Assembly (NCBI RefSeq): GCF_000738675.1
Contig: NZ_JPUX01000001.1
Span: forward strand, 3,720,001 to 3,784,000
DNA: 64,000 nt
Direction: 5' to 3'
DNA from: Serratia nematodiphila DZ0503SBS1
GTDB taxonomy: Bacteria; Pseudomonadota; Gammaproteobacteria; Enterobacterales; Enterobacteriaceae
The notes under the pieces were generated by a model. The model ran no database searches. It had not been told where the DNA came from and saw only the letters and a program-made list of their open reading frames with translations. Position 1 is the first letter of the stretch, and each line of letters opens with the position of its first letter. This document shows, in pieces, positions 950 to 57,790 of the stretch. A program made the position numbers and the translations under genes.

Positions 950-1899
950 GCAACGCCATCACCCCCGAGCAGCGCCAGGCGCTGAAAATGGCCGCACACT
1001 GGTATGCGCTGCTGTGCGACGAGCACGTCACCGAACGCCAGCGCCAACAGTGGCAAGCCTGGCACCAGCAGCATGACGATCACCGCTGGGCCTGGCAGCG
1101 CGTCGAAGCGTTGCAGAGCCAGCTGCAGGGCGTGCCGGGCAAATTCAGCTATCGCGCGCTCGATCGCGCCGGCCGTCAATCGGCGATCGATCGCCGCACC
1201 CTGCTGAAAAGCCTGCTGTTATTGCTCGGCGTGGGCGGCGGCTTCCTTTACCAGTCGCCGTTCGGCCGGGAGCTACGCGCCGACTACCGCACCGCCACCG
1301 GCGAGATCAAACCCATTGTGTTAAGCGACGGCACCCAGCTGGTGCTGAACACCGCCAGCGCGGTGGACGTGCATTACGACGATCGTCAACGGCTGATCCG
1401 CTTGCACGCTGGGGAAATCAGCCTGATTACCGGACGCGACCCCCGGCCGCTGTGGGTGCAAAGCCCGCAGGGGGCGATGCGCGCGCTCGGCACCCGCTTT
1501 TTGGTGCGCGAGAGCGCTGGCGAGACGCGCCTGACGGTGCTGGAGCATGCGGTTGAAGCGCAGCTGGCGCAGGACGCGCGGCAAACGCGCCGGGTGAACG
1601 CCGGCGAACAGATTAGCTTCAGCGCCACGGCCTTCGGCGACAAGCAATCAGCTGCGGCGGAGGACGGCTGGCTGCGCGGCGTGCTGAGCGTCAGCCAGTG
1701 GCGGCTGGACCGGGTGATCGCCGAACTGGCGCGCTACCGGCGCGGCCACCTGAGCTGCGATCCGGCCGTCGCCGGCCTGCGCGTCAGCGGCAGTTTCCCG
1801 CTCAACGATACCGATCGCGCCCTCGTCCTGCTCAGCCAGACGCTGCCGGTTCGTCTGCAAAGCTTTACCCGCTATTGGCTGCAAATCGTCCCCGCCTGA
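946..1899 (+). CDS. fecR: FecR anti-sigma/signal transducer
   Basis: Inner-membrane regulator of 317 residues, the same length as E. coli FecR, that relays receptor occupancy from FecA to FecI. The cytoplasmic N-terminal part contains the conserved HWYALL and QWQAWHQQH tryptophan-rich segment. A single membrane span follows near residues 85-105 (LLKSLLLLLGVGGGFLY), then a periplasmic FecR domain ending RYWLQIVPA. The start at 946 overlaps the fecI stop. In the Fec paradigm the FecR N-terminus is needed for FecI activity rather than only inhibiting it. Confidence 0.94.
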   Translation: MSNAITPEQRQALKMAAHWYALLCDEHVTERQRQQWQAWHQQHDDHRWAWQRVEALQSQLQGVPGKFSYRALDRAGRQSAIDRRTLLKSLLLLLGVGGGFLYQSPFGRELRADYRTATGEIKPIVLSDGTQLVLNTASAVDVHYDDRQRLIRLHAGEISLITGRDPRPLWVQSPQGAMRALGTRFLVRESAGETRLTVLEHAVEAQLAQDARQTRRVNAGEQISFSATAFGDKQSAAAEDGWLRGVLSVSQWRLDRVIAELARYRRGHLSCDPAVAGLRVSGSFPLNDTDRALVLLSQTLPVRLQSFTRYWLQIVPA

Positions 1900-2014
1900 A
1901 TTTTTTTAAATAAAAATGATAAAAAATCGCATTCTTGATTGTCCCTTTTGCTTCGCTCATCCGACTCCCAGGAAAACACTGCAGCAATAAATAAAAAATG
2001 ATTCAGGAGAAGGT
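1900..2014 (+). promoter_or_regulatory. fecR-fecA intergenic region, expected FecI promoter
   Basis: The 115 bp are AT-rich at first and then contain the stretch TTGATTGTCCCTTTTGC (about 1934-1950), resembling my recollection of the region preceding E. coli fecA. In E. coli fecA is transcribed separately by FecI RNA polymerase, so a FecI-dependent promoter is expected here. I cannot define the -35 and -10 elements with certainty. A ribosome binding site (AGGAGAAGG) precedes the fecA ATG. Confidence 0.45.
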
Positions 2015-4366
2015 ATGAACAACGCTTGGGGAAAGGCCGCTCCGGCTTCGCTTTGGGGAAAACGGGCCACGCCGCTGGCCGTGGCCATTGGCCTGGTCTT
2101 CGCTGCACCGCAGATGGCGAGCGCCGCCAGCGCCGCTGCCGCCTACCACATTCCGGCCGGTGAGCTGGACGGCGCGCTGAACGCTTTCGCCGCGCGCGCC
2201 GGCATCGCGCTCTCGGTGGACGGCACGCTGACCGCCGGCAAACGTTCGCCGGGCCTGAACGGCAGCTACGGTGTCGACGACGGCCTGAACGCCCTGCTGG
2301 CGGGCAGCGGCCTGCAGGCTAAAACGCTCGGCAACAACGGTTACACGCTGGCCACACTGCCGCAGCCGCAGAAGGAAGAGGACATCACGGTAGTCGGTGA
2401 CTGGCTGGCGGAAGGCCGTCAGGCAGACGTGTTCGAACACCCCGGCGCGCGCGACGTGGTGCGCCGCGAAGACTTCGTCAAAACCGGCACCACCACCGTG
2501 CGCGAAGCGTTGAACCGCGTGCCGGGCGTGGTGGCGCCGGAAAACAACGGCACCGGTAGCCACGATATGGCGCTGAACTTCGGCATACGCGGCCTCAACC
2601 CGCGCCTCGCCAGCCGCTCCACCGTGCTGATGGACGGCATTCCGGTGCCCTTCGCCCCTTACGGCCAGCCGCAGCTATCGCTGGCGCCGGTCTCGCTCGG
2701 TAATATGGACGCGATTGACGTGGTGCGCGGCGGCGGCGCGGTGCGCTACGGGCCGCAGAGCGTCGGCGGCGTGGTCAACTTCGTCACCCGCGCCATCCCG
2801 AAAACCTTCGGCATGACGGCCGGCATGCAGGGGCAACTCAGCCCGACCTCGCGCCAGGATCACCCGAAAGGCACCGGCAACCTGATGATCGGCGGCACCG
2901 CCGACAACGGCTTCGGCGCGGCGCTGCTCTACTCCGGCACCCGCGGCAGCGACTGGCGCGAGCACAGCTCGACCAAAATCGACGACGTGATGCTGAAAAG
3001 CCGTTACGCGCCGAACGAGGTGCACACCTTCAACAGCCTGCTGCAATACTACGAAGGCGAAGCTGAAATGCCGGGCGGCCTGAGCCGGGCGGACTACAAC
3101 GCCAACCCGTTCCAGTCGACGCGCCCGTACGACAAGTTCTGGGGCCGCCGCCAGTTGGCGAACTTCGGCTACCAGTATCAGCCGGATCAGCAGCACAAGT
3201 TCGACGTGCAGAGCTTCTACACCTACACCCTGCGCAGCGGCTATCTGGATCAGGGCAAGAACCTGACGCTGTCGCCGCGCGAATACTGGGTGCGCGGCGT
3301 AGAACCGCGCTACAGCCAGAGCTTCCGCTGGGGCGACTCGGCGCACGAGGTCGGCGTCGGCTACCGTTACGTCAGCGAATCCACCCACGAGCTGCGCTAC
3401 TACACTAAAGCCAGCACCGGCAGGCTGCCGTCCACCGCCAGCCCGTACGATCGCGACACCCAGTCAGGCACCGAGGCGCACGCGTTCTATATCGACGATC
3501 GCATCGACATCGGCGACTGGACCCTCACGCCGGGCATGCGTTACGAATACATCAAGTCGTATCAGAACAACTACATCAAGAACAACCGCCTCGACGTCAG
3601 CTATAACGCGCCGCTGCCGGCGTTGAACGTGATGTATCACCTGAATGAATACTGGAACCTGTACGCCAACACCGAAGGCTCCTTCGGCACCGTGCAGTAC
3701 AGCCAGATGGGCAAAGCGGTCGACAGCGGCAAGATTGAACCGGAGAAGGCGCGCACCTGGGAGCTGGGCACCCGCTACGCCGGCGATGCGCTGACCGGCG
3801 AAATCGGGCTGTTCCTGATCAACTTCAACAACCAGTATGACTCCAACCAGGTGACCGACAGCGTGACCGCGCGCGGCAAAACCCGCCACGCCGGGCTGGA
3901 AGGCAGCCTGCGTTACGATCTGTCGCAGCTAACGCCGAAACTGGACGACCTGACTGCCTACGCCAGCTACGCCTACGTCAACGCCACCATCCGCGAAGAC
4001 GGCGGCTACAAAGGCAACCAGGTGCCTTTCTCGCCGAAGCATAAAGGCACGCTGGGGCTGGACTACACGCCGGGCAACTGGGCGTTTAACCTTAACGGCG
4101 AGTTCCAGTCCAGCCAGTTCGCCGACAACGCCAACACCGTGGCGGAAAGCGCCGACGGCAGCACCGGCCGCATTCCCGGCTACATGCTGTGGGGCGTGCG
4201 CGCCGCCTATGATTTCGGCCCGGAAATGGCCGGCCTGAATCTGGGCGTCGGCGTGAAAAACCTGTTCAACCACGAGTATTTCACCCGCGCCTATGACGAC
4301 AACAACAAGGGTCTGTACATCGGCCAGCCGCGCACGATTTATCTGCAAGGTTCGGTGAAGTTCTGA
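2015..4366 (+). CDS. fecA: Ferric citrate TonB-dependent receptor FecA
   Basis: Outer-membrane transporter and sensor for ferric dicitrate, 783 residues. After the signal peptide (cleavage near MASAASA) comes an STN signalling domain (about residues 45-120) that contacts FecR, a TonB box-like EDITVVG, the plug domain (NFGIRGLNPRLASRSTVLMD, VVRGGGAVRYGPQSVGGVVN) and a beta-barrel ending in QGSVKF with terminal Phe. Long stretches are identical to E. coli FecA, so substrate specificity is well supported. Unlike E. coli, no fecBCDE follows; the next gene is an acetyltransferase. Confidence 0.96.
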   Translation: MNNAWGKAAPASLWGKRATPLAVAIGLVFAAPQMASAASAAAAYHIPAGELDGALNAFAARAGIALSVDGTLTAGKRSPGLNGSYGVDDGLNALLAGSGLQAKTLGNNGYTLATLPQPQKEEDITVVGDWLAEGRQADVFEHPGARDVVRREDFVKTGTTTVREALNRVPGVVAPENNGTGSHDMALNFGIRGLNPRLASRSTVLMDGIPVPFAPYGQPQLSLAPVSLGNMDAIDVVRGGGAVRYGPQSVGGVVNFVTRAIPKTFGMTAGMQGQLSPTSRQDHPKGTGNLMIGGTADNGFGAALLYSGTRGSDWREHSSTKIDDVMLKSRYAPNEVHTFNSLLQYYEGEAEMPGGLSRADYNANPFQSTRPYDKFWGRRQLANFGYQYQPDQQHKFDVQSFYTYTLRSGYLDQGKNLTLSPREYWVRGVEPRYSQSFRWGDSAHEVGVGYRYVSESTHELRYYTKASTGRLPSTASPYDRDTQSGTEAHAFYIDDRIDIGDWTLTPGMRYEYIKSYQNNYIKNNRLDVSYNAPLPALNVMYHLNEYWNLYANTEGSFGTVQYSQMGKAVDSGKIEPEKARTWELGTRYAGDALTGEIGLFLINFNNQYDSNQVTDSVTARGKTRHAGLEGSLRYDLSQLTPKLDDLTAYASYAYVNATIREDGGYKGNQVPFSPKHKGTLGLDYTPGNWAFNLNGEFQSSQFADNANTVAESADGSTGRIPGYMLWGVRAAYDFGPEMAGLNLGVGVKNLFNHEYFTRAYDDNNKGLYIGQPRTIYLQGSVKF

Positions 4367-4372
4367 TCCTCA

Positions 4373-4409
4373 ACGGCGGGCGCGTTTAACCGTGCCCGCC
4401 GTCTTTCTC
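4373..4409 (+). terminator. fecA terminator
   Basis: A GC-rich inverted repeat ACGGCGGGC / GCCCGCCGT with a 12-nt loop lies a few bases after the fecA stop and is followed by CTTTCTC. It fits a Rho-independent terminator with a weak T tract. Confidence 0.65.
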
Positions 4410-4415
4410 ATCAAC

Positions 4416-4428
4416 GTGACACCGTCAC
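4416..4428. other. matS site (MatP binding)
   Basis: GTGACACCGTCAC matches the 13-bp matS consensus GTGACRNYGTCAC exactly. MatP binding at such sites organises the Ter macrodomain in enterobacteria. It lies between fecA and the acetyltransferase gene, and three further exact matches occur in the window. Confidence 0.85.
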
Positions 4429-4566
4429 ATAAAGCCGTTCCTCCGCGCCGCCGCAGCGGTGAAAAATAAGTCGCTTCTGCCGCCAATGCGCGTAATATCG
4501 ACGATCCGCCCCGATTTATGGGCGCGGACTTTTTTGCCATTCTGGCCTGAAAAGCGAGGGAATAAG

Positions 4567-5088
4567 ATGAATCATAATGACCTTTCTCAGTGCCGCGTTG
4601 ACACCGACCGTTTGTTGATTGCCCCCTTTACCGCAGCAGACGCCGACGATGTTTACCAGGCGATCACCCCCACTCTGACGCGCTTTATGACCTTTGAGCC
4701 GGAGGCGTCGCCGGAAGATTTCGCCAACGTCTGGCAAGGCTGGCTGCCGTTGATGCGCGAGGGTGAAGAAGTGATCTTCGTCGCCCGCCGGCGCGAAGAC
4801 CGGCAGTTCGTCGGCGTCGGCGGCGCGCATAATCTGCGCAGCCACACCCCGGAGCTGGGCATCTGGGTTAAAGAGAGCCTGCATGGCCAGGGCTACGGCC
4901 GCGAAATCGTGCAGGGCATCGCGCGCTGGGCCAGCGAGCGCTTTCAGCCGCCGCACTTTCTCTACCCGGTGGCCGAGCAGAATACCGCCAGCCGCCGCCT
5001 CGTCGAGTCGCTGGGCGGCGTGCTGGCCGGCCGTTGCGAGCGCATCAAGTATGACGCCGTGGTGTATCACCTGCCGCCTCAGCGCTAG
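4567..5088 (+). CDS. GNAT family N-acetyltransferase (RimJ-like)
   Basis: A 173-residue protein of the Acetyltransf_3/RimJ-RimL type. It begins with the typical TDRLLIAPFTAADADDVYQA and carries the acetyl-CoA binding loop in GIWVKESLHGQGYGREIVQG (Q/RxxGxG/A-like GQGYGRE) and the terminal NTASRRLVESLGG motif. The ATG at 4567 is preceded by GAGGGAATAAG; an in-frame upstream extension to 4459 lacks similarity. The acetylated substrate (protein N-terminus or small molecule) cannot be deduced. Confidence 0.85.
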   Translation: MNHNDLSQCRVDTDRLLIAPFTAADADDVYQAITPTLTRFMTFEPEASPEDFANVWQGWLPLMREGEEVIFVARRREDRQFVGVGGAHNLRSHTPELGIWVKESLHGQGYGREIVQGIARWASERFQPPHFLYPVAEQNTASRRLVESLGGVLAGRCERIKYDAVVYHLPPQR

Positions 5089-36724: not shown

Positions 36725-37752
36725 GCGGAGCCACGCCGGATCAGCGTCGGCGGCAGAATGACGTTCTGCGCCGGCAGGTCGGCGTCACCGATGCGCTGCA
36801 GCAGGCGCGCGGCGGCGCTGCGCCCCACTTCCCGCGCCGAGCTGGAGACGAAGGTCAGCGGCGGCTCGGTCAGCTCGGCCTCCGGCACGTCGCCGAAGCC
36901 GATCAGCGCCACCTGCCGGCCGTAGTAGGCGTCGACCCCGTCCGAGCCGATGCTGCGGCCGCTGCGCGTCAGGCCAAAATAGGCGCCAAGCGCCACCGAA
37001 GCCTTGTGGCAGACGACAGCGGTAATGTTCGGGTAGTGGCGCAGCAGCTGTTCCGCCGCTTGCGCCGCCTCACGCTGCCGGCAATCGCACTCGACGATCC
37101 ATTCGCTGCGAAACGGCAGGCCGTACTGCACCAGCGTGGCGCAAAAGCCGCCCAACCGCTCGGCACGCGTCAATGAGTCGCTCTGGCCGCCAAGGTAGGC
37201 GATTTGGCTGTGGCCGCGTTTGATCAAAAATTCGGTGGCCAGTTTGGCGGCCTGCATGTTGTCCGGCCGCACCACGTCCACCCCATCGAGACCGCTGGAG
37301 CGCGCCACGCACACCAGCGGTACGCCCTGCTCGGCCGCCTTCTCCTTCAACCCAGCCGCCGCGCGAATGCCGCCGGCCAGCACGATACCGTCGACGCCCT
37401 GCGCCAGCAGCGCGTCAAACGCCCGCTGCAAGCCCTGGCCGTCGCGCCCGCTCTGGGTTAAAAACAGCAGTTTGTCGTGCGCCTCCAGCGCTTCGCTCAG
37501 CCCGGCGGTCATTTCGGCATAGAAGGGTTCGCAAATGTCGCGCAGAACGAGGCCGATCACCCCGGATTCACCGCCGCGCAGCGTCGCCGCCTGACGATTG
37601 CGCACGTAGCCCAGCAGCTCTATCGCCTGATTGACCTTCTCGACGGTGGTCGGCGAAATCCGCCCCTTGCCGCTCAACACCAGGGAAACCGTGGTGACCG
37701 ACACGCCCGCCTGCTGCGCCACATCGGTGATGGTGATTTTTTTGATGCTCAT
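36721..37752 (-). CDS. malI: LacI-family repressor MalI
   Basis: Repressor of malXY, 343 residues. The LacI helix-turn-helix is ITITDVAQQAGVSVTTVSLV with the hinge LGYVRNRQAATLRG, followed by a periplasmic-binding-like effector domain. Position divergent from malX and adjacent to malY matches E. coli. ATG 37752 gives MSIKKITITDVA. The natural inducer of MalI is not known. Confidence 0.94.
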   Translation of the reverse strand: MSIKKITITDVAQQAGVSVTTVSLVLSGKGRISPTTVEKVNQAIELLGYVRNRQAATLRGGESGVIGLVLRDICEPFYAEMTAGLSEALEAHDKLLFLTQSGRDGQGLQRAFDALLAQGVDGIVLAGGIRAAAGLKEKAAEQGVPLVCVARSSGLDGVDVVRPDNMQAAKLATEFLIKRGHSQIAYLGGQSDSLTRAERLGGFCATLVQYGLPFRSEWIVECDCRQREAAQAAEQLLRHYPNITAVVCHKASVALGAYFGLTRSGRSIGSDGVDAYYGRQVALIGFGDVPEAELTEPPLTFVSSSAREVGRSAAARLLQRIGDADLPAQNVILPPTLIRRGSA

Positions 37753-47334: not shown

Positions 47335-47916
47335 ATGACCGAATACCTGCTCCTGTTTGTCGGCACCGTACTGGTGAACAACTTCGTTCTGGTGAAGTTT
47401 CTTGGCCTGTGCCCGTTCCTCGGCGTTTCCAAGAAGCTGGAAAGCGCCATCGGCATGGGAATGGCCACCACCTTCGTCATGACGCTGGCCTCCGTCAGCG
47501 CCTGGGTGATCAACACCTTTATTCTGGTTCCGCTGGATCTGGTGTATCTGCGCACGCTCTCTTTCATTCTGGTGATCGCCGTCGTCGTGCAGTTCACCGA
47601 GATGGTGGTGCGCAAAACCAGCCCGGCGCTCTACCGCCTGCTGGGCATCTTCCTGCCGCTGATCACCACCAACTGTGCGGTGCTGGGCGTGGCGCTGCTT
47701 AACGTCAACCTCGGCTACAACTTCCTGCAGTCCGCCGTTTACGGCTTTAGCGCCGCCGCCGGTTTCTCGCTGGTGATGGTGCTGTTCGCCGCCATTCGCG
47801 AACGTCTGGCGGTCGCCGACGTGCCGGCGCCGTTCCGCGGCTCCTCGATCGCGCTGATCACCGCCGGGCTGATGTCGCTGGCCTTTATGGGCTTTACCGG
47901 GCTGGTGAAATTCTAA
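47335..47916 (+). CDS. rsxA: Electron transport complex subunit RsxA
   Basis: Inner-membrane subunit of 193 residues with six spans, homologous to NqrE/Rnf[14 protein letters not shown] and GLCPFLGVS are conserved, each with the Cys that coordinates the intramembrane Fe-S cluster with RsxE. The Rsx complex in E. coli keeps SoxR reduced and thus inactive; Rnf relatives couple ferredoxin:NAD electron flow to ion transport. The stop shares one base with the rsxB start. Confidence 0.96.
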
Positions 47917-48488
47917 TGACTGCGTTGTGGATAGCTATCGCGGCTCTAAGCGCGCTCGGGCTGCTGTTCGGACTGGTGCTGGGCTACGCTGCGCGCCGTT
48001 TTGAGGTGGAAGAGGATCCGGTCGCCGAGCAGGTCGATGCGATCCTGCCGCAGAGCCAGTGCGGCCAGTGCGGCTACCCCGGCTGTCGCCCCTATGCCGA
48101 GGCGGTGGCCAACGGCGAGATGATCAACAAATGCGCGCCGGGCGGCGAACAGGTGATGCTGAAACTGGCGGAGCTGCTCAACGTAGAACCGCAGCCGCTG
48201 GGCAGCGAAGCCGCCGCCGAGCCGGAGCGTAAAGTGGCCTATATCGACGAGGCCAACTGCATCGGCTGCACCAAGTGCATTCAGGCCTGCCCGGTGGATG
48301 CCATCGTCGGCGCCACCCGCGCCATGCACACCGTCATCACCGACCTCTGTACCGGCTGCGATCTGTGCGTCGCCCCTTGCCCTACCGACTGTATTGAAAT
48401 GAGACCGGTCGCTACCACCACCGCCAACTGGAAGTGGGACATGAAGACGATCCCGGTGCAAGTGATCCACGTGGAGCAACATGCTTAA
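47916..48488 (+). CDS. rsxB: Electron transport complex ferredoxin RsxB
   Basis: A 190-residue Fe-S protein with an N-terminal membrane anchor ([18 protein letters not shown]). A 4Fe-4S domain with CGQCGYPGC follows, then two ferredoxin motifs [12 protein letters not shown] and [12 protein letters not shown]. All cysteines are present. It is the electron entry/relay subunit of Rsx/Rnf. It overlaps rsxC by 8 bp. Confidence 0.96.
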
Positions 48489-50682
48489 TCTGTTCGCCGC
48501 CTTTAAAAAAGACCGGATCTGGGATTTCGACGGCGGGATCCATCCACCGGAAATGAAAACGCAGTCCAGCGGTGCGCCGCTGCGTGTCGCGCCCCTGCCC
48601 AAGACCTTTATCATTCCGCTGCAACAGCATCTGGGGCCGGAAGGCGAGCTGTGCGTCAGCGCCGGCGATCGGGTGTTGAAAGGCCAGCCGCTGACCGTCG
48701 GCCGCGGCCGCACCGTGCCGGTGCACGCCCCGACCTCGGGCACCGTCAGCGCCATTACGCCGCACATCACCGCGCACCCGTCCGGGCTGACGGAGCTGTG
48801 CGTGATTATCGAGGCAGACGGGGAAGACCGCTGGTGCGAGCGCGATCCGGTGGCGGACTATCGCCAATCGCCCGCCGCGGAACTGATTCAACGTATTCAT
48901 CAGGCCGGCATCGCCGGCCTGGGCGGCGCAGGTTTCCCGACCGCCAGCAAACTGCAAGGCGGCATGAGCGGCGTGGAAACGCTGATCCTCAACGCCGCCG
49001 AGTGTGAGCCTTACATTACCGCCGACGACCGTCTGATGCAGGAACATGCCGCTCAGATCATTGAAGGCACGCAGATCCTGCAACACATTCTGCAACCCAA
49101 GCTCACGCTGATCGGCATCGAAGACAATAAACCGGAGGCAATCGCGGCGCTGAAACAGGCGTTGCGCGGCCAGCCCGGCATTGCGCTGCGCGTCATCCCG
49201 ACCAAATACCCATCCGGCGGCGCCAAGCAGCTGACCAAAATTTTGACCGGCAAGGAAGTGCCGCACGGTAAGCACTCCTCCGCTATCGGCGTATTGATGC
49301 AAAACGTCGGCACCGCCTTCGCCATCAAGCGAGCGATCGTCGACGGCGAACCGCTGATTGAGCGCGTAGTGACCCTGACCGGCGAGGCGATCGAGCGCCC
49401 CGGCAATCTGTGGGCTCGCATCGGCACGCCGGTGCAGCACCTGCTCGACTTCGTCGGTTTCCGCCCGCAGGCGCAGCAGATGGTGGTCATGGGCGGCCCG
49501 CTGATGGGCTTCACCCTGCCCGCGCTGAACGTGCCGATCGTCAAGATCAGCAACTGCATTCTGGCACCGACGGTGGATGAAATGACGCCGCAGGAACCGG
49601 AGCAGTCCTGCATCCGCTGCGGCCTGTGCGTAGACGCTTGCCCTGCCGGGCTGCTGCCGCAACAGCTGTACTGGTTCAGCCGCGGGCAGGAGCACGACAA
49701 GGCGCGCAACCATAACCTGTTCGACTGCATCGAATGCGGTGCCTGCGCGTTCGTCTGCCCCAGCAATATCCCGCTGGTACAGTACTACCGGCAGGAAAAG
49801 GCCGAAATCAAGGCTATCGATCTGGAAGCGGCGCGCACCGCCGAGGCCAAGGCGCGTTACGAGGCCAAGCTGGCGCGTCTGGAGCGTGAAAAACTGGCGC
49901 GTGAAGAGCGACATAAAAAGGCCGCCGTCAAACTGACCGACGACGATCAGGGCGCAGTGCAGGCCGCGCTGGCGCGCGTGCGCAGCAAGAATGCCGAAGC
50001 GGCGGTTACGCCGGTCAACGGCCAGCAGCCGGATAACAGCGAGATGATCGCTGCCCGCGAAGCACGTAAAGCGCAGGCGCGCGAACGTCGTGCCCAGCTG
50101 GCCGCCGAGGTGGAAACGGAAGCGCCACCGGCGACCGCTGGCGACGACGCGCGTAAAGCCGCCGTGGCCGCGGCGCTGGCCCGCGTGAAAGCGCGCAAAG
50201 AGGCGCCGGCAGCAGACAGCTCCGCCCCGGCGGCAACAGAGGACGATCCGCGTAAAGCGGCAGTCGCGGCGGCACTGGCGCGCGTAAAAGCCAAGAAAGC
50301 GGCGCAGCAGGCGGATGCTCCTGCATCGGCGGAACCGGCGCCGGCTGCAGCCGAAGAAGATCCGCGCAAGGCGGCGGTCGCGGCGGCACTGGCGCGCGTA
50401 AAAGCCAAGAAAGCGGCACAGCAGGCGGATGCCCCTGCATCGGCGGAACCGGCGCCAGCTGCAGCCGAAGAAGATCCGCGCAAGGCGGCGGTCGCGGCGG
50501 CTATCGCCCGCGCCAAAGCCAAGAAAGCGGCGCAGCAGGCGGATGCCCCTGCGCCGGCGGAACCGGCGCCGGCTGCAGCCGAAGAAGATCCGCGCAAGGC
50601 GGCGGTCGCGGCGGCTATCGCCCGCGCCAAGGCAAAAAAAGCCGCCAGAGAATCGCTGGCGGCGGAAACGGAAGACAAATAA
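48481..50682 (+). CDS. rsxC: Electron transport complex subunit RsxC
   Basis: A 733-residue peripheral subunit with NADH- and FMN-binding region ([28 protein letters not shown]) and two 4Fe-4S motifs ([24 protein letters not shown]). The conserved part ends near residue 450. The tail is a long Ala/Lys-rich region with at least four 38-residue near-identical repeats beginning [10 protein letters not shown]. Such tails vary greatly in length between strains and species and are likely helical or disordered. The next rsx gene, rsxD, is 1.3 kb away because of an inserted regulator. Confidence 0.95.
50245..50645 (+). repeat. 114-bp tandem repeats in the rsxC 3' end
   Basis: Units begin at 50245, 50359, 50473 and 50587 (last one partial), each starting GATCCGCG and encoding [10 protein letters not shown](L/I)AR(V/A)KAKKAA. 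A degenerate copy precedes at about 50143. The 114-bp period keeps the reading frame. Confidence 0.92.
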
Positions 50683-50689
50683 TGATAGC

Positions 50690-50713
50690 GGCGCCTGGCT
50701 GACGCCTGGCGCC
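50690..50713. terminator. Hairpin between rsxC and the AraC-type gene
   Basis: Inverted repeat GGCGCC (50690-50695) and GGCGCC (50708-50713) with a 12-nt loop between converging genes. There is no T tract, so terminator function is uncertain. Confidence 0.35.
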
Positions 50714-50715
50714 AT

Positions 50716-51609
50716 TTAATCGATAGAAATCAGGTAGGTGTAATCCACTTCAATCTGACGCAGTTTGGATTCAGGATTCCACTCTTTGGTTTGAATGATC
50801 TCCATTTCCATACTGCCACGCACTTTATCCTTCAACCCCGGCATCACATGCGACATCAGGTAGCCGAAAAACTGCAAACACTCTTTCGCCGACCCCTTAT
50901 GGTTGATAGAGATAAACTCGCGGCTCGGCAAATGGAAGGTGTCTATCTGATGGTTGGAAAGAATATCCTTTCTGTGTTCAGGATCGACCGCCATCACCAG
51001 CGTGGATGAGAGCTCGTCGCCCTTCCCGGCATGAGGGGAGTAGATGCTGTAAATCCGCCGACAGTCGACGTGCAGCCCCTTGAAGAAGTCGTTGAAAATC
51101 TCATCCTTCATCGCCATGCAGGAAGAGTACTCCAGCTCCTGTTCGGAGGCGAAATCCAGCCGGCGCGTGAAGCCGACCAGCTGCATGTCGGGCAGCGTCA
51201 GCCGCTTCACTTCCGGGTAATAACCGGCGCCGTAGCTGGCTTCGAAGTTAAAGCGCGGCATCAGGTTTTTCACGTCCCAGTGCTCCATCGAGCGGTAGCG
51301 ATTGGGGGTGGTGCCGAAGCGCTGCTTGAACATGCGGGTAAAGGTCTGCTGAGAGTCGAAGCCCAGCTCATCGGAGATGTCGATGATCGAGCGACGAGTA
51401 ATGCGCAACGCCACCGCGGCGCGCGTCAGGATGCGCGAACGGATATAGGTGGCGAGTTGAATGCCGGTAATACGCTTGAATTTACGCTGCAGATGCCACT
51501 TGGAATAGCCCGAAATACGCGCGACTTCATCCAGGTTTGGCCGTTTCTCCAGATGTATCTCCACCCACTCAATTAGCTCTTCAATAAAAAAAATGTCTTC
51601 ATTTGTCAT
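50716..51609 (-). CDS. Rob-like AraC/XylS regulator inserted in the rsx cluster
   Basis: A 297-residue regulator. The N-terminal AraC double HTH (residues 5-105) closely resembles Rob/SoxS/MarA: ISGYSKWHLQRKFKRITG, and FDSQQTFTRMFKQRFGTTP. A C-terminal domain of about 180 residues has the Rob/GyrI-like layout (LTLPDMQLVGFTRRLDF at its start). Size is close to Rob (289). It lies on the opposite strand between rsxC and rsxD, which are adjacent in E. coli. A role in redox or drug stress is inferred from its relatives; I do not assign it as Rob itself, since rob normally sits elsewhere. Confidence 0.85.
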   Translation of the reverse strand: MTNEDIFFIEELIEWVEIHLEKRPNLDEVARISGYSKWHLQRKFKRITGIQLATYIRSRILTRAAVALRITRRSIIDISDELGFDSQQTFTRMFKQRFGTTPNRYRSMEHWDVKNLMPRFNFEASYGAGYYPEVKRLTLPDMQLVGFTRRLDFASEQELEYSSCMAMKDEIFNDFFKGLHVDCRRIYSIYSPHAGKGDELSSTLVMAVDPEHRKDILSNHQIDTFHLPSREFISINHKGSAKECLQFFGYLMSHVMPGLKDKVRGSMEMEIIQTKEWNPESKLRQIEVDYTYLISID

Positions 51610-51974
51610 TATTATGGATTCACTGACTCAATAATGTTCGCGATAGTAACCTACACGGATTATGTGAAAGTTGTTATTTTGTGCGGAAATCTGGAGAAAA
51701 ATGATATCTCATTCAGACATTTACCCCATTTCCCGCGGTCGATGGCGGCACAAGTTCCACTGACAATTCCTCACGTTAGCCCATTTCCCGGCCAAAAAAA
51801 AATCAAATCGCGCCACCCCGATCGCCAGATGTGCGGAAAGCCGAATACCCCTATCAATAAGGCGTATTACCCTCGCATCGAATCAGGTAGAATGCTCGGC
51901 TATCATTTTTGCCGCGCCCGCAGTATGGCGCATCGAAACTGCCGCAGGCGCGGCGCAGAAGGTATCGTTACTCT
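51610..51974. promoter_or_regulatory. Divergent region: Rob-like regulator / rsxD
   Basis: This 365-bp region is AT-rich near the regulator and holds no supported gene. Because the regulator on the other strand splits the rsx genes, rsxDGE-nth must be transcribed from a promoter here unless read through from rsxC. I could not recognise a clear marbox. Confidence 0.55.
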
Positions 51975-53060
51975 ATGAAGTTCAGGCCGGTATCACCCAC
52001 AGCCGCCAAAGGCTTACACATCGCCAGCTCGCCTTTCACCCACAACCAGCAAAGCACCAGCCGCATTATGCTATGGGTCATGTTGGCGTGCATTCCCGGC
52101 ATTGCGGCGCAGATTTGGTTTTTCGGCTACGGCGTGCTGATTCAGGTGGCGCTGGCGGCGATCGTCGCGCTGGCCGCAGAAGGCGCGATCCTCAGGCTGC
52201 GCAAGCTGCCGGTGCGCAGCCGGCTGGCGGATAACTCCGCCCTGCTGACCGCGCTGCTGCTTGGCATCAGCCTGCCGCCGCTGGCGCCGTGGTGGATGAT
52301 CGTCATCGGCACCTTCTTCGCCATCGTTATCGCCAAACAGCTGTATGGCGGCCTCGGGCAGAACCCGTTCAACCCGGCGATGGTCGGTTACGTAGTGCTG
52401 CTGATCTCCTTCCCGGTGCAGATGACCAGCTGGCTGCCGCCGGATGAACTGCGCGCCACCGCGCTGTCGCTCCACGACACGCTGCTGGCGATTTTCAGCG
52501 GCCATACCGCACAGGGCGCGACGCTGCACGAACTGCAGATGGGCGTGGACGGCATCAGCCAGGCCACGCCGCTCGACGGCTTCAAAACCGGCCTGCGCAG
52601 CGGCCACAGCGTGGAACAGGTGTTGCAGCAGCCGCTGTTCGGCGGCGCGCTGGCCGGTATCGGCTGGCAGTGGGTCAACCTCGGTTTCCTGGCCGGCGGC
52701 CTGTTTATGCTGGCGCGCCGCCTGATCCATTGGCAAATCCCTTTCAGCATGTTGGCCGCCATCGCCTTCTGTTCCGGTCTGGCCTGGTGGATCGATCCGG
52801 CGCATCAGGCTTCACCGCTGATCCACCTATTCTCCGGCGCCAGCATGCTGGGTGCGTTCTTTATCGCCACCGATCCGGTCAGCGCCTCCACCACGCCGAA
52901 GGGCCGCTTAATCTACGGCGCGCTGATCGGCGTGCTGGTCTGGCTGATCCGCGTCTATGGCGGCTACCCTGATGGTGTGGCCTTCGCCGTGCTGCTCGCC
53001 AACATCACCGTCCCGTTAATCGACCACTACACGCAGCCGCGCGTGTACGGCCATCGCTAA
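51975..53060 (+). CDS. rsxD: Electron transport complex subunit RsxD
   Basis: Integral membrane subunit of 361 residues related to NqrB, with about nine spans. From [17 protein letters not shown] onward it follows E. coli RsxD. The FMN attachment Thr is in [13 protein letters not shown], and [15 protein letters not shown] and [13 protein letters not shown] are conserved. Start ATG 51975 gives a somewhat longer N-terminus ([15 protein letters not shown]) than in E. coli; further upstream extension is unlikely. Confidence 0.94.
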
Positions 53061-53069
53061 GGAGCCGCC

Positions 53070-53699
53070 ATGCTGAATTCCATGAGAAAGCACGGCACCA
53101 CGCTGGCGGTGTTTGCGGCGGTCACCACCGGCCTGACCGCCGTAGTTTACGCCCTGACGAAAACCACCATCGCCCATCAGGCGGCGCTGCAGCAAAAAGC
53201 GCTGCTCGATCAGGTGGTACCGCCGGAAAACTACGACAACATCATGCAGAACGAATGCCTGCTGGTCAGCGATCCGGCGTTGGGCGACGGCGCGCCGCAC
53301 CGCTTGTACCTGGCGCGCAAAAACGGGCAACCGACCGCCGCCGCGCTGGAAGCCACCGCGCCGGACGGCTACTCCGGCGCCATCAAGTTGCTGGTCGGCG
53401 CCGATTTCAACGGCACGGTACTCGGCACCCGGGTGATTGAACACCATGAAACCCCGGGGCTGGGCGACAAGATCGAACTGCGCATTTCCGACTGGATTTC
53501 CTTCTTCAGCGGCAAGAAAATCGACGGCCCGGACGACAAACGCTGGGCGGTGAAGAAAGACGGCGGCATGTTCGACCAATTCACCGGCGCCACCATCACC
53601 CCGCGTGCGGTGGTCAATGCGGTGCGCCGCACGGCGTTGTATATGGAAACGCTGCCGCCTAAACTTGAAAGCTTACCTGCGTGTGGAGCCAGCGAATGA
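53070..53699 (+). CDS. rsxG: Electron transport complex subunit RsxG
   Basis: A 209-residue subunit with one N-terminal membrane span ([20 protein letters not shown]) and a periplasmic FMN-binding domain. The flavin is expected to be covalently linked to the Thr in [23 protein letters not shown] is conserved with NqrC/RnfG. AAGGAGCCGCC precedes the ATG. It overlaps rsxE by 4 bp. Confidence 0.95.
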
Positions 53700-54394
53700 G
53701 TGAAGCCAAAGAATTAATCGTCCAGGGGTTGTGGAAGAACAACTCCGCCCTGGTGCAGCTGCTGGGCATGTGCCCGCTGCTGGCGGTGACCTCCACCGTC
53801 ACCAACGCGCTGGGCCTGGGGCTGGCCACCACGCTGGTGCTGACGCTGACCAACGCCTCCATCTCAGCGGTGCGCCGCTGGGTGCCAAGCGAAGTGCGTA
53901 TTCCGATCTACGTGATGATCATCGCCGCGGTGGTGAGCATCGTGCAGATGCTGATCAACGCCTATGCCTTCGGCCTGTATCAGTCGCTCGGCATCTTTAT
54001 TCCATTGATCGTGACCAACTGCATCGTGGTCGGCCGCGCCGAAGCGGTGGCCGCCAAGAAGCCGGTCGGCCTCTCGGCGCTGGACGGCATGGCCATCGGC
54101 CTTGGCGCCACCGGCGTGATGGTGACGCTGGGCTCGATGCGCGAACTGTTGGGCAACGGTACGCTGTTCGACGGCGCCGACCAACTGCTGGGCGGCTGGG
54201 CCAAGTCGCTGCGCATCGAAGTGGTGCATTTCGACAGCCCATTCCTGCTGGCGATGCTGCCGCCGGGCGCCTTTATCGGCCTGGGGCTGCTGCTGGCGGT
54301 CAAATATCTGATCGACGAAAAAATGAAGGCGCGCAAAGCCCGCGCCGTGGCGGCGGAACCGCTGCTGGAACAAGGACGTGCTGAGAAGGCCTGA
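53696..54394 (+). CDS. rsxE: Electron transport complex subunit RsxE
   Basis: A 232-residue membrane subunit, paralogue of RsxA/NqrD, with six spans. [13 protein letters not shown] and [13 protein letters not shown] contain the conserved Cys residues paired with those of RsxA. ATG 53696 overlaps the rsxG stop (ATGA). The stop overlaps nth by one base. Confidence 0.95.
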
Positions 54395-55035
54395 TGAACA
54401 AGCAGAAGCGACTGGAAATTCTGACCCGGCTGCGCGACAACAACCCGCACCCGACCACCGAGCTGGTGTACACCACCCCGTTTGAACTGCTGATTGCCGT
54501 GCTGCTGTCTGCGCAGGCCACCGACGTGAGCGTCAACAAGGCGACCGCCAGACTTTACCCGGTCGCCAACACCCCCGCCGCCATGCTGGCGCTGGGGGTT
54601 GATGGCGTCAAGGAGTACATCAAGACCATCGGCCTGTTCAACAGCAAGGCCGAAAACGTGATCAAAACCTGCCGTATGCTGCTGGAGCTGCACGGCGGCG
54701 AAGTGCCGGAAGATCGCGCCGCGCTGGAAGCGCTGCCGGGCGTCGGCCGCAAGACCGCCAACGTGGTGCTCAATACCGCCTTCGGCTGGGCGACCATCGC
54801 CGTGGACACCCACATCTTCCGGGTGTGCAACCGCACCCACTTCGCGCCGGGCAAGAACGTCGATCAGGTGGAAGAGAAGCTGTTGAAGGTGGTGCCCGCC
54901 GAATTCAAGGTCGATTGCCACCACTGGCTGATCCTGCACGGGCGCTACACCTGCATCGCGCGCAAACCGCGCTGCGGCTCCTGCATCATCGAGGACCTAT
55001 GCGAGTATAAAGAGAAGGTTTATCCAGAATCCTGA
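54394..55035 (+). CDS. nth: Endonuclease III Nth
   Basis: Base-excision DNA glycosylase/AP lyase of 213 residues removing oxidised pyrimidines. The helix-hairpin-helix LPGVGRKTANVV holds the catalytic Lys, AVDTHIFRV the catalytic Asp. The 4Fe-4S loop is CIARKPRCGSCIIEDLC together with an upstream Cys in KVDCHHW. It is translationally coupled to rsxE, as in E. coli. Confidence 0.97.
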   Translation: MNKQKRLEILTRLRDNNPHPTTELVYTTPFELLIAVLLSAQATDVSVNKATARLYPVANTPAAMLALGVDGVKEYIKTIGLFNSKAENVIKTCRMLLELHGGEVPEDRAALEALPGVGRKTANVVLNTAFGWATIAVDTHIFRVCNRTHFAPGKNVDQVEEKLLKVVPAEFKVDCHHWLILHGRYTCIARKPRCGSCIIEDLCEYKEKVYPES

Positions 55036-57179: not shown

Positions 57180-57790
57180 AAGACCACCTCCTGAGGAGGT
57201 GGCTTTACACGACGCCCCCTAAAAGGGGGCCATTTTCGAGTTAATCCTGCAACAGCTCCATCTGCTGTTCGATCTCTTGGTCCTTCTTATCCTGATACTT
57301 CACGTATCGCCTGATAATTTCTTCGTTTACCCCTACCGTATCGACAAAGTATCCCCTTGCCCAAAAATGATTGCCCCACAACTTCTTTCGTATATGTGGG
57401 AAACGATTGTAAAGCCGGATTGCACTGCGTCCTTTCAGGACGCCCATCAACGTCGAAATCGATAGCTTCGGGGGGACTATCACGACCAGATGCACATGAT
57501 CTGGCTGAATATTTAGCTCAAGAACTTCACAGTCCTTCATGTTGCAGAGGATATAAATTGTTCGGTAGAGCTCTTTGCCCACCTTGTCGCGGAGGATTTT
57601 AAATCGATACTTTGGCGTCCAAACCAGGTGGTATTTGCAACGCCAGAACACATGTGATGAACTCCTGTATAAACCCATGTTGGTGATTTCCTTCTTACTT
57701 GTGGTGAGTAAGCTGGAATATTCCGGCATGGGTTTCCTTCAGGCTAGAGCCTCACAGGTTCAATCACCACCTCCTTAGGAGGTGGTTTAA
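57180..57790. mobile_element. IS200-type insertion sequence
   Basis: An element of about 0.6 kb: one transposase gene on the minus strand bounded by two near-identical hairpins, CCACCTCC-TGA-GGAGGTGG (57184-57202) and CCACCTCC-TTA-GGAGGTGG (57767-57785). Subterminal hairpins without inverted terminal repeats or target duplication are the IS200/IS605 design. A further hairpin GCCCCC/GGGGGC (about 57212-57230) follows the transposase end. Exact borders need an empty-site comparison. Confidence 0.85.
57241..57678 (-). CDS. tnpA: IS200/IS605-type transposase TnpA
   Basis: A 145-residue HUH single-strand transposase. The HUH motif is PDHVHLVV (His-Val-His), and the catalytic Tyr is in RRYVKYQDKK. 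CKYHLVWTPKYR and FWARGYFVDTVG are family marks. Length is normal, so the copy looks intact. ATG 57678 is chosen; upstream in-frame codons to 57729 reach toward the end hairpin. Codon use and lower GC differ from the neighbours, as expected for a mobile gene. Confidence 0.93.
   Translation of the reverse strand: MGLYRSSSHVFWRCKYHLVWTPKYRFKILRDKVGKELYRTIYILCNMKDCEVLELNIQPDHVHLVVIVPPKLSISTLMGVLKGRSAIRLYNRFPHIRKKLWGNHFWARGYFVDTVGVNEEIIRRYVKYQDKKDQEIEQQMELLQD

Follow-up and report, generated by a model that had tools for sequence, protein, structure and literature searches.

A Rob-type AraC-family regulator lies between rsxC and rsxD in Serratia and Yersinia

We have analyzed a stretch of 64,000 nucleotides from the genome of Serratia nematodiphila DZ0503SBS1, hereafter called the window, which contains a complete set of the rsxABCDGE genes together with nth. 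Reading along the plus strand, a YdgK-like gene is followed by rsxA, rsxB and rsxC. A gene in the reversed orientation, here termed REG, comes next, and is followed in turn by rsxD, rsxG, rsxE and nth. The features of the locus are as follows.

47335-47916, plus strand: rsxA (open reading frame list; NCBIfam RsxA over cut-off)
47916-48488, plus strand: rsxB (open reading frame list and tblastn, 74% to E. coli RsxB)
48481-50682, plus strand: rsxC, 733 amino acids, convergent with REG (NCBIfam over cut-off)
50690-50713: putative two-way terminator hairpin between the stop codons of rsxC and REG (folding and covariation)
50716-51609, minus strand: REG, Rob-type AraC-family regulator of 297 amino acids (open reading frame list, Pfam, NCBIfam and PDB matches)
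51643-51648, minus strand: predicted REG -10 element, TACTAT (read from the sequence; kept in the Serratia-type alignment)
51669-51685, minus strand: marbox-like site, forward, predicted class II geometry (conservation and consensus match)
51862-51893, plus strand: predicted rsxD promoter block, with -35-like TATTAC at 51865-51870, a 17-bp spacer and -10 TAGAAT at 51888-51893 (conservation)
51975-53060, plus strand: rsxD, with ATG at 51975 (NCBIfam over cut-off)
53070-53699, plus strand: rsxG (NCBIfam over cut-off)
53681-54394, plus strand: rsxE, likely in-frame ATG at 53696 (NCBIfam over cut-off)
54394-55035, plus strand: nth, endonuclease III (NCBIfam Nth over cut-off)

The rsxC and REG genes converge, with their stop codons 33 bp apart, and REG and rsxD diverge from a single gap of 365 bp (51610-51974) that holds the predicted promoters of both. 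In two papers on E. coli, the rsx genes are described as a single operon with a part in resetting SoxR (PMC11729352, PMC12594620). The window matches that operon in gene content and gene order and in the YdgK-like gene that precedes rsxA, and its downstream open reading frame of 504 amino acids looks dtpA-like by eye. It differs in that the reversed gene splits the operon, a hairpin follows rsxC, and rsxD is preceded by a second, predicted promoter. The E. coli rsxC and rsxD genes (1766-3988 and 3989-5047 in locus L133) are contiguous. An earlier sequence-only reading of this DNA had set the contiguous E. coli genes against a Rob-like AraC regulator that splits rsxABC from rsxDGE-nth, and both halves of that statement are borne out, the second by the Pfam domains of REG and by the naming of the rsx genes with NCBIfam.

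A scan of species genomes gave 31 loci. In 29 of these (19 Serratia, 10 Yersinia) a match spanning REG adjoined an rsxD gene on the opposite strand, including one match with a frameshift (L070) and one that starts at REG residue 7 (L045). RsxC was seen on the other side of REG in 22 of the 29, the contig ending first in the other seven. The remaining two loci, from Hafnia and Citrobacter, matched the DNA-binding domain only and had no rsx match. Among 392 genomes of the family, 23 matched the REG profile at 1e-60, and REG was found between rsxC and rsxD in 18 of them, one of which (G170) has a frameshifted REG. The synteny that the sequence-only reading had proposed to survey over Serratia and Yersiniaceae is upheld at all 29 Serratia and Yersinia loci. 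The other five profile matches (G048, G103, G221, G294 and G355) are to a more distant relative, 35-40% identical, that does not adjoin rsxD within the DNA examined; it lies ~9 kb beyond nth in G048 and ~68 kb from rsxD in G103. A large protein search returned 38 proteins. Those named by organism were all from Serratia, Gibbsiella or Yersinia, and their annotations were helix-turn-helix protein, AraC family, or Right origin-binding protein. One family genome (G087, L016) is probably Gibbsiella, having the same 75% identity as the Gibbsiella protein match. In the record of S. rubidaea NCTC12971 (L070) there are frameshifts in REG, RsxC, RsxB and Nth alike, and these look like sequencing error. 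Misassembly, or an event confined to a single strain, is ruled out by the agreement of the 29 loci and the 18 genomes.

We also examined the junction of rsxC and rsxD from the side of RsxD, which was matched in 107 of the 149 genomes searched, 108 times in all. Thirty of these loci were read, seven with REG and 23 without. In 19 of the 23 loci without REG, the rsxC frame ends no more than 9 nt from the first aligned RsxD codon, or reaches that codon; in the other four the gap is 15, 39, 151 and 525 nt (L127, L118, L117 and L116, respectively). Because rsxC and rsxD abut in E. coli and in most of the loci read that have no REG, the presence of REG in the rsx locus looks like a derived state.

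REG matches HTH_18, HTH_AraC and the GyrI-like family over the Pfam cut-offs. The DNA-binding domain occupies residues ~8-107 (PF12833 at 30-107) and the GyrI-like domain residues ~133-282 (PF06445 at 133-282), i.e., the domain layout of RobA, in which an AraC-type DNA-binding domain is followed by a GyrI-like domain. RobA is also the best NCBIfam match, with a score of 203.9 bits against a cut-off of 380, while the other RobA model gave 180.1 bits against 426 (NF012228/NF011701); REG was likewise below the NCBIfam cut-offs of SoxS, MarA and RamA. The nearest matches by sequence in the PDB are E. coli Rob (7vwy, 1d5y), followed by SoxS, MarA and RamA. The predicted model of REG, with moderate scores only (mean pLDDT 71.7, pTM 0.64), contains seven helices and, after residue 130, two strand-strand-helix-strand-strand units. 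Inspection of REG by eye revealed no metal-binding motif.

The recognition helices of REG, GYSKWHLQR and FDSQQTFTR, are near-identical to those of RobA and do not vary among the orthologues compared (19 of 19). Comparison of the Serratia and Yersinia proteins gave 76.8% identity in the DNA-binding domain and 43.4% in the C-terminal domain. Values of dN/dS against 11 relatives were 0.04-0.12, corresponding to purifying selection, with synonymous sites near saturation in eight of the 11. Against the eight more distant relatives the values, which are rough on account of this saturation, were ~0.005-0.02 for the DNA-binding domain and 0.06-0.20 for the C-terminal domain. Thus REG appears to be a maintained regulator in which DNA recognition is fixed and the sensor is drifting.

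In a phylogenetic tree REG forms a single clade with support of 100/100, apart from RobA, and its sister group (99/97) is formed by the REG-like proteins of G048, G103, G221, G294 and G355. L023, a short open reading frame, was left out of the tree, and own_L003, own_L005, own_L006 and own_L009 are on long branches where their placement is unsure. The genome encodes its own RobA as a separate gene (L002), which passes the two RobA cut-offs with 496.6 and 534.8 bits, and at least four further close relatives of marbox binders, most of them with near-identical recognition helices. The possibility that REG is a relocated RobA is ruled out, since the genome has its own RobA and the tree separates the two. 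REG resembles RobA in its two-domain layout and its nearly identical recognition helices, but it is 36% identical to the RobA of its own genome, belongs to a separate clade, and is encoded within rsx, behind a predicted marbox-like promoter of its own. It resembles SoxS, MarA and RamA in having a DNA-binding domain 40-50% identical to the stand-alone relatives in the genome, and in the marbox logic and class II geometry predicted for its promoter; those proteins have no sensor domain, whereas REG has one. We assign REG to a new subfamily of the Rob-type regulators, and regard its rsx locus as a novel variant. Two MarA-like regulators of Yersinia pestis, MarA47 and MarA48, are named in two papers (PMC6176095, PMC8272246), and one of them could be the Yersinia orthologue of REG.

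The border between rsxC and REG contains a hairpin (50690-50713). Its two strands gave folding free energies of -19.4 and -20.7 kcal/mol as 43-nt folds, with z = -3.2 and -3.9 relative to dinucleotide shuffles. Thirty rsxC-REG gaps were found, the end of rsxC being missing in six of 36 loci, and 22 of them were tested. Of these, 21 gave z ≤ -2.5 against mononucleotide shuffles, the exception being L062. The gaps outside the test were either long or unclear (L051, L056, L015, L070), near copies (L017, L014), or only 4 bp in length with no hairpin (L063, L018). L048, L049, L054 and L068 were shortened for the test, and for seven of the 30 (L043, L051, L057, L017, L062, L070, L015), where the tail is not in the RsxC frame, the position at which the gap begins is only approximate. 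In ten Serratia-type hairpins, six of 12 base pairs have changed on both sides. The covariation score of 0.370 compares with 0.145 in shuffles, none of 500 reaching it, and with a maximum of 0.167 for slid versions; the ten hairpins had been cut and centered by hand, which favors structure. T-runs are present at the hairpin in several relatives, with no clear T-run in the window copy, and a terminator scan called no terminator at 50690-50713. Judged by folding and covariation, the hairpin is likely to be a two-way terminator. In L048, L049 and L056 the gaps are 91, 95 and 172 bp in length, and contain additional sequence with long hairpins beside the terminator-like one, perhaps small mobile repeats.

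Upstream of REG, the sequence at 51669-51685 is the most conserved of the 349 17-mer windows of the Serratia-type gaps, at 98.2% compared with a mean of 74% (20 of the 25 Serratia-type rows, near copies and L070 having been dropped). On the sense strand of REG it has one mismatch to a SoxS consensus form, VGCAYWWWNKRHCAAAH, in 22 of the 25 Serratia-type gaps; the exceptions, L056, L057 and L017, retain a variant of the site. A longer form of this consensus was not found in the open-licence literature. Allowing no more than one mismatch to the SoxS form, there are two sites in the 64-kb window where 1.04 are expected, the second being at 37218 inside an open reading frame that looks LacI-type by eye. 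Two consensus forms of the marbox are printed in the literature, AYnGCACnnWnnRYYAAAY (PMC2064960) and gcannwwntgnnaaa (PMC12052159). To these the REG site has three mismatches (536 of 20000 block shuffles were as good) and two mismatches (601 of 20000), respectively, and such matches are no commoner in the window than by chance (79 found, 83.9 expected). The fit of the site is thus strong with the SoxS form and modest with the printed ones.

According to two papers, a class II site is a forward marbox that overlaps the -35 and has its center 30-42 or 36-55 bp before the start of transcription (PMC10268841, PMC12052159). Taking TACTAT as the -10, the marbox-like site is forward and centered at ~-41 of a start of transcription (~51636) that is predicted only, and this matches class II geometry. 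A promoter scan gave no sigma-70 match in 50500-52100; both the promoters and the terminator were assigned by conservation rather than by promoter or terminator scan. In the 11 Yersinia-type gaps we found no good marbox before REG. Nine of these have a loose reverse candidate that starts 28 bp before REG, with two or three mismatches to the 19-bp form. Nothing comparable to the marbox-like site was found upstream of the REG-like genes of L098, L099 and L101. Self-regulation of REG is plausible in Serratia, and for these reasons it is not extended to the whole group. The Yersinia-type gaps have a conserved block of their own around GATATRAATTGCAAG, at ~238-254 in the numbering of L065 from REG.

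The predicted promoter block before rsxD was matched in 34 of the 36 gaps with no more than three of 26 positions off, the exceptions being L055 and L015. The pattern was written from the same sequences, so that 34 of 36 is a measure of conservation only. A looser form of the block was found in six of the seven REG carriers among 149 genomes and in none of the 142 others, and the reversed control gave none; the carrier without it is G016 (L015). The block is unique in the genome of the window. This pattern of conservation supports the existence of a separate promoter for rsxDGE, as the sequence-only reading had supposed. In L015 the REG-rsxD gap is 667 bp, ~300 bp longer than those of its relatives, and the block has been lost.

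In the putative rsxD promoter the -35 is poor, and a conserved stretch upstream of it is a possible activator site. In G029 (L136), a reduced genome of 1.2 Mb, there is no REG match and rsxC and rsxD are 151 nt apart. Upstream of rsxD (~6146) an element related to the block, with TATAAT as its -10 and partly repeated in tandem, can be seen by eye, though in the pattern search its longer spacer made it score no better than chance. The occurrence of this element without REG suggests that the rsxD promoter can outlive REG. At one mismatch or fewer to the SoxS form, no marbox was found at rsxA or rsxD in the 64-kb window. Looser searches covered the gaps in which the promoter block occurs (34 of 36). 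With the loosest printed form (two mismatches of 10), 10 of the 23 Serratia-type gaps, that of the window included, had a forward match, placed at -63 or -70 relative to the predicted start of rsxD (~51900 in the window); four of 11 Yersinia-type gaps had a match between -63 and -84. Forward matches to the 19-bp form (three mismatches of 14) were found before rsxD in three of 23 and three of 11 gaps, and matches to the SoxS form with two mismatches in 0 of 23 and one of 11. The loose matches lie outside the most conserved windows of the gap, and they are forward, whereas class I sites should be reversed. There may be a weak or unusual marbox at rsxD. The feedback loop put forward in the sequence-only reading, in which the regulator controls both its own gene and rsxDGE, thus survives in part. 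Self-regulation is plausible, given the marbox-like site before REG, but control of rsxDGE is not upheld, the matches being loose and non-canonical in orientation and a related promoter being kept without REG in G029.

SoxR is over cut-off in 167 of the 392 family genomes, a set that includes many reduced genomes, but in only five of the 18 genomes with REG, each of them belonging to the genus group of the window. In 16 selected genomes (14 REG carriers, six named Yersinia) SoxR was found in one only. SoxS was over cut-off in none of the 15 REG carriers searched and in neither of two others, three carriers being outside the search; a stand-alone SoxS/Rob-like protein (L004) that reaches ~150 of the 174 bits required for SoxS occurs in several carriers. 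The SoxR of the window's genome is divergent from genes encoding DoxX, an RND adaptor and an RND permease (L146, G000:C1:4222000-4232500), a mexGHI-like setting of a kind known from Pseudomonas. No Rob-family or AraC gene was found in this 3.4-kb SoxR locus and no soxS nearby; the absence of an adjacent soxS is a difference from the Rsx-SoxR-SoxS circuit of E. coli. The sequence-only reading had joined REG to the machine that reduces SoxR. Given SoxR in so few carriers, SoxS in none of those searched, and a SoxR that lies beside a DoxX-RND efflux operon, SoxR-SoxS wiring of REG fails for most carriers and the proposed link is weakened. A SoxR-centered reading as the general explanation is ruled out by the distribution of SoxR and SoxS together with the SoxR neighborhood.

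The explanation we prefer is that REG is a lineage-specific Rob paralogue, probably controlled by a marbox, that has lodged in rsx, and taken as a whole we think it somewhat the better supported side of an even question. A Rob paralogue would have entered rsx on the stem of the Serratia-Yersinia group, to be inherited vertically and kept in place. By analogy with its family, REG would act as a one-component regulator, binding marboxes through its MarA/SoxS/Rob-type domain and taking its signal through the faster-evolving GyrI-like domain. In the Serratia part of the group REG would be turned on from its class II promoter, the marbox being occupied by REG, in a positive self-regulatory loop, and/or by RobA and other marbox binders. 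As suggested by sequence conservation, the hairpin behind rsxC would end both the rsxABC and the REG transcripts, and rsxDGE-nth would be transcribed from a promoter of its own, acquired when REG was inserted. REG would most likely serve a mar/sox/rob-type regulon elsewhere, and be a mere lodger in rsx.

The long-conserved position of REG inside rsx could nevertheless be a sign of a functional link. REG might bind the shared gap, controlling its own gene and rsxDGE-nth and so tuning Rsx to the signal of its C-terminal domain. Divergent promoters with conserved blocks in one short gap, an arrangement that has lasted in Serratia and Yersinia, and the poor -35 and possible activator site of rsxD are all in keeping with such local feedback. 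So are the matches to the loosest form before rsxD, seen in 10 of the 23 Serratia-type gaps (forward, -63 or -70) and in four of 11 Yersinia-type gaps, which led us to raise our estimate of it slightly and to lower that of the preferred explanation by the same small amount. Yet these matches are oriented against class I rules, they dwindle with the tighter forms (3/23, and 0/23 for the SoxS form), they lie outside the most conserved windows, and the rsxD promoter is retained, partly duplicated, in REG-less G029. We regard local feedback as unlikely, but as deserving serious attention. It is also conceivable that the marbox serves RobA and its paralogues, with REG as their target and no self-regulation, the insertion site being accidental and REG and rsx selected separately. 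The genome has RobA and at least four other relatives of marbox binders, with mostly near-identical recognition helices, that could fill this role, but the recognition helices of REG are preserved equally well, and its DNA-binding domain has dN/dS of only ~0.005-0.02 against the eight distant relatives. This seems to us distinctly doubtful.

Two further explanations make REG a replacement for SoxRS. In one, which we consider improbable, REG took over redox or drug sensing in a SoxRS-poor lineage, and Rsx activity acts on the REG signal. The scarcity of the two proteins in the carriers (SoxR 5/18, SoxS 0/15) and the retention of rsxC and rsxD in all 18 are what this would lead one to expect. 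However, SoxR is missing in 225 of the 392 family genomes, so that REG carriers are not unusual in lacking it; the SoxS/Rob-like protein at ~150 of 174 bits could play the part of SoxS, REG has no metal-binding motif by eye, and the group to which the window belongs has both SoxR and REG. The other, which we think very improbable indeed, has a Rob-type one-component sensor captured by rsx and replacing SoxR-SoxS in a Serratia-Yersinia lineage that is largely free of SoxRS, such that Rsx activity would keep the ligand of REG low, and loss of that activity would free REG to turn on REG and the marbox regulon.

There is thus an enterobacterial group in which rsx is cut into two predicted transcription units by a SoxS-class regulator, and in which most of the members checked have no SoxR. 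The split locus makes it possible to test the role of Rsx in enterobacteria that lack SoxR, and to ask whether a long stay in a foreign operon reflects a regulatory link or a shared address only. It also offers a clean example of an operon that was split and in which terminator-like and promoter sequences then arose anew, and it can be compared with outgroups where rsxC and rsxD abut. We found no description in the open-licence literature of an AraC-family gene between rsxC and rsxD in Serratia, though one may exist elsewhere.

Some smaller features of the locus can be added. The C-terminus of RsxC (within 48481-50682) contains five near-identical alanine/lysine repeats, by eye, and in seven relatives the contig ends after REG before the main part of rsxC is reached, as is to be expected where repeats interrupt an assembly. 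The N-terminal region of RsxD in Serratia and Yersinia (51975-52010) includes ~12 residues that are not in E. coli RsxD; these are also aligned in some genomes without REG (G138, G148). Downstream of nth, at 57241-57729 of the window, there is a putative IS200-like transposase gene, flanked by a transporter open reading frame and a peptidase-like open reading frame.
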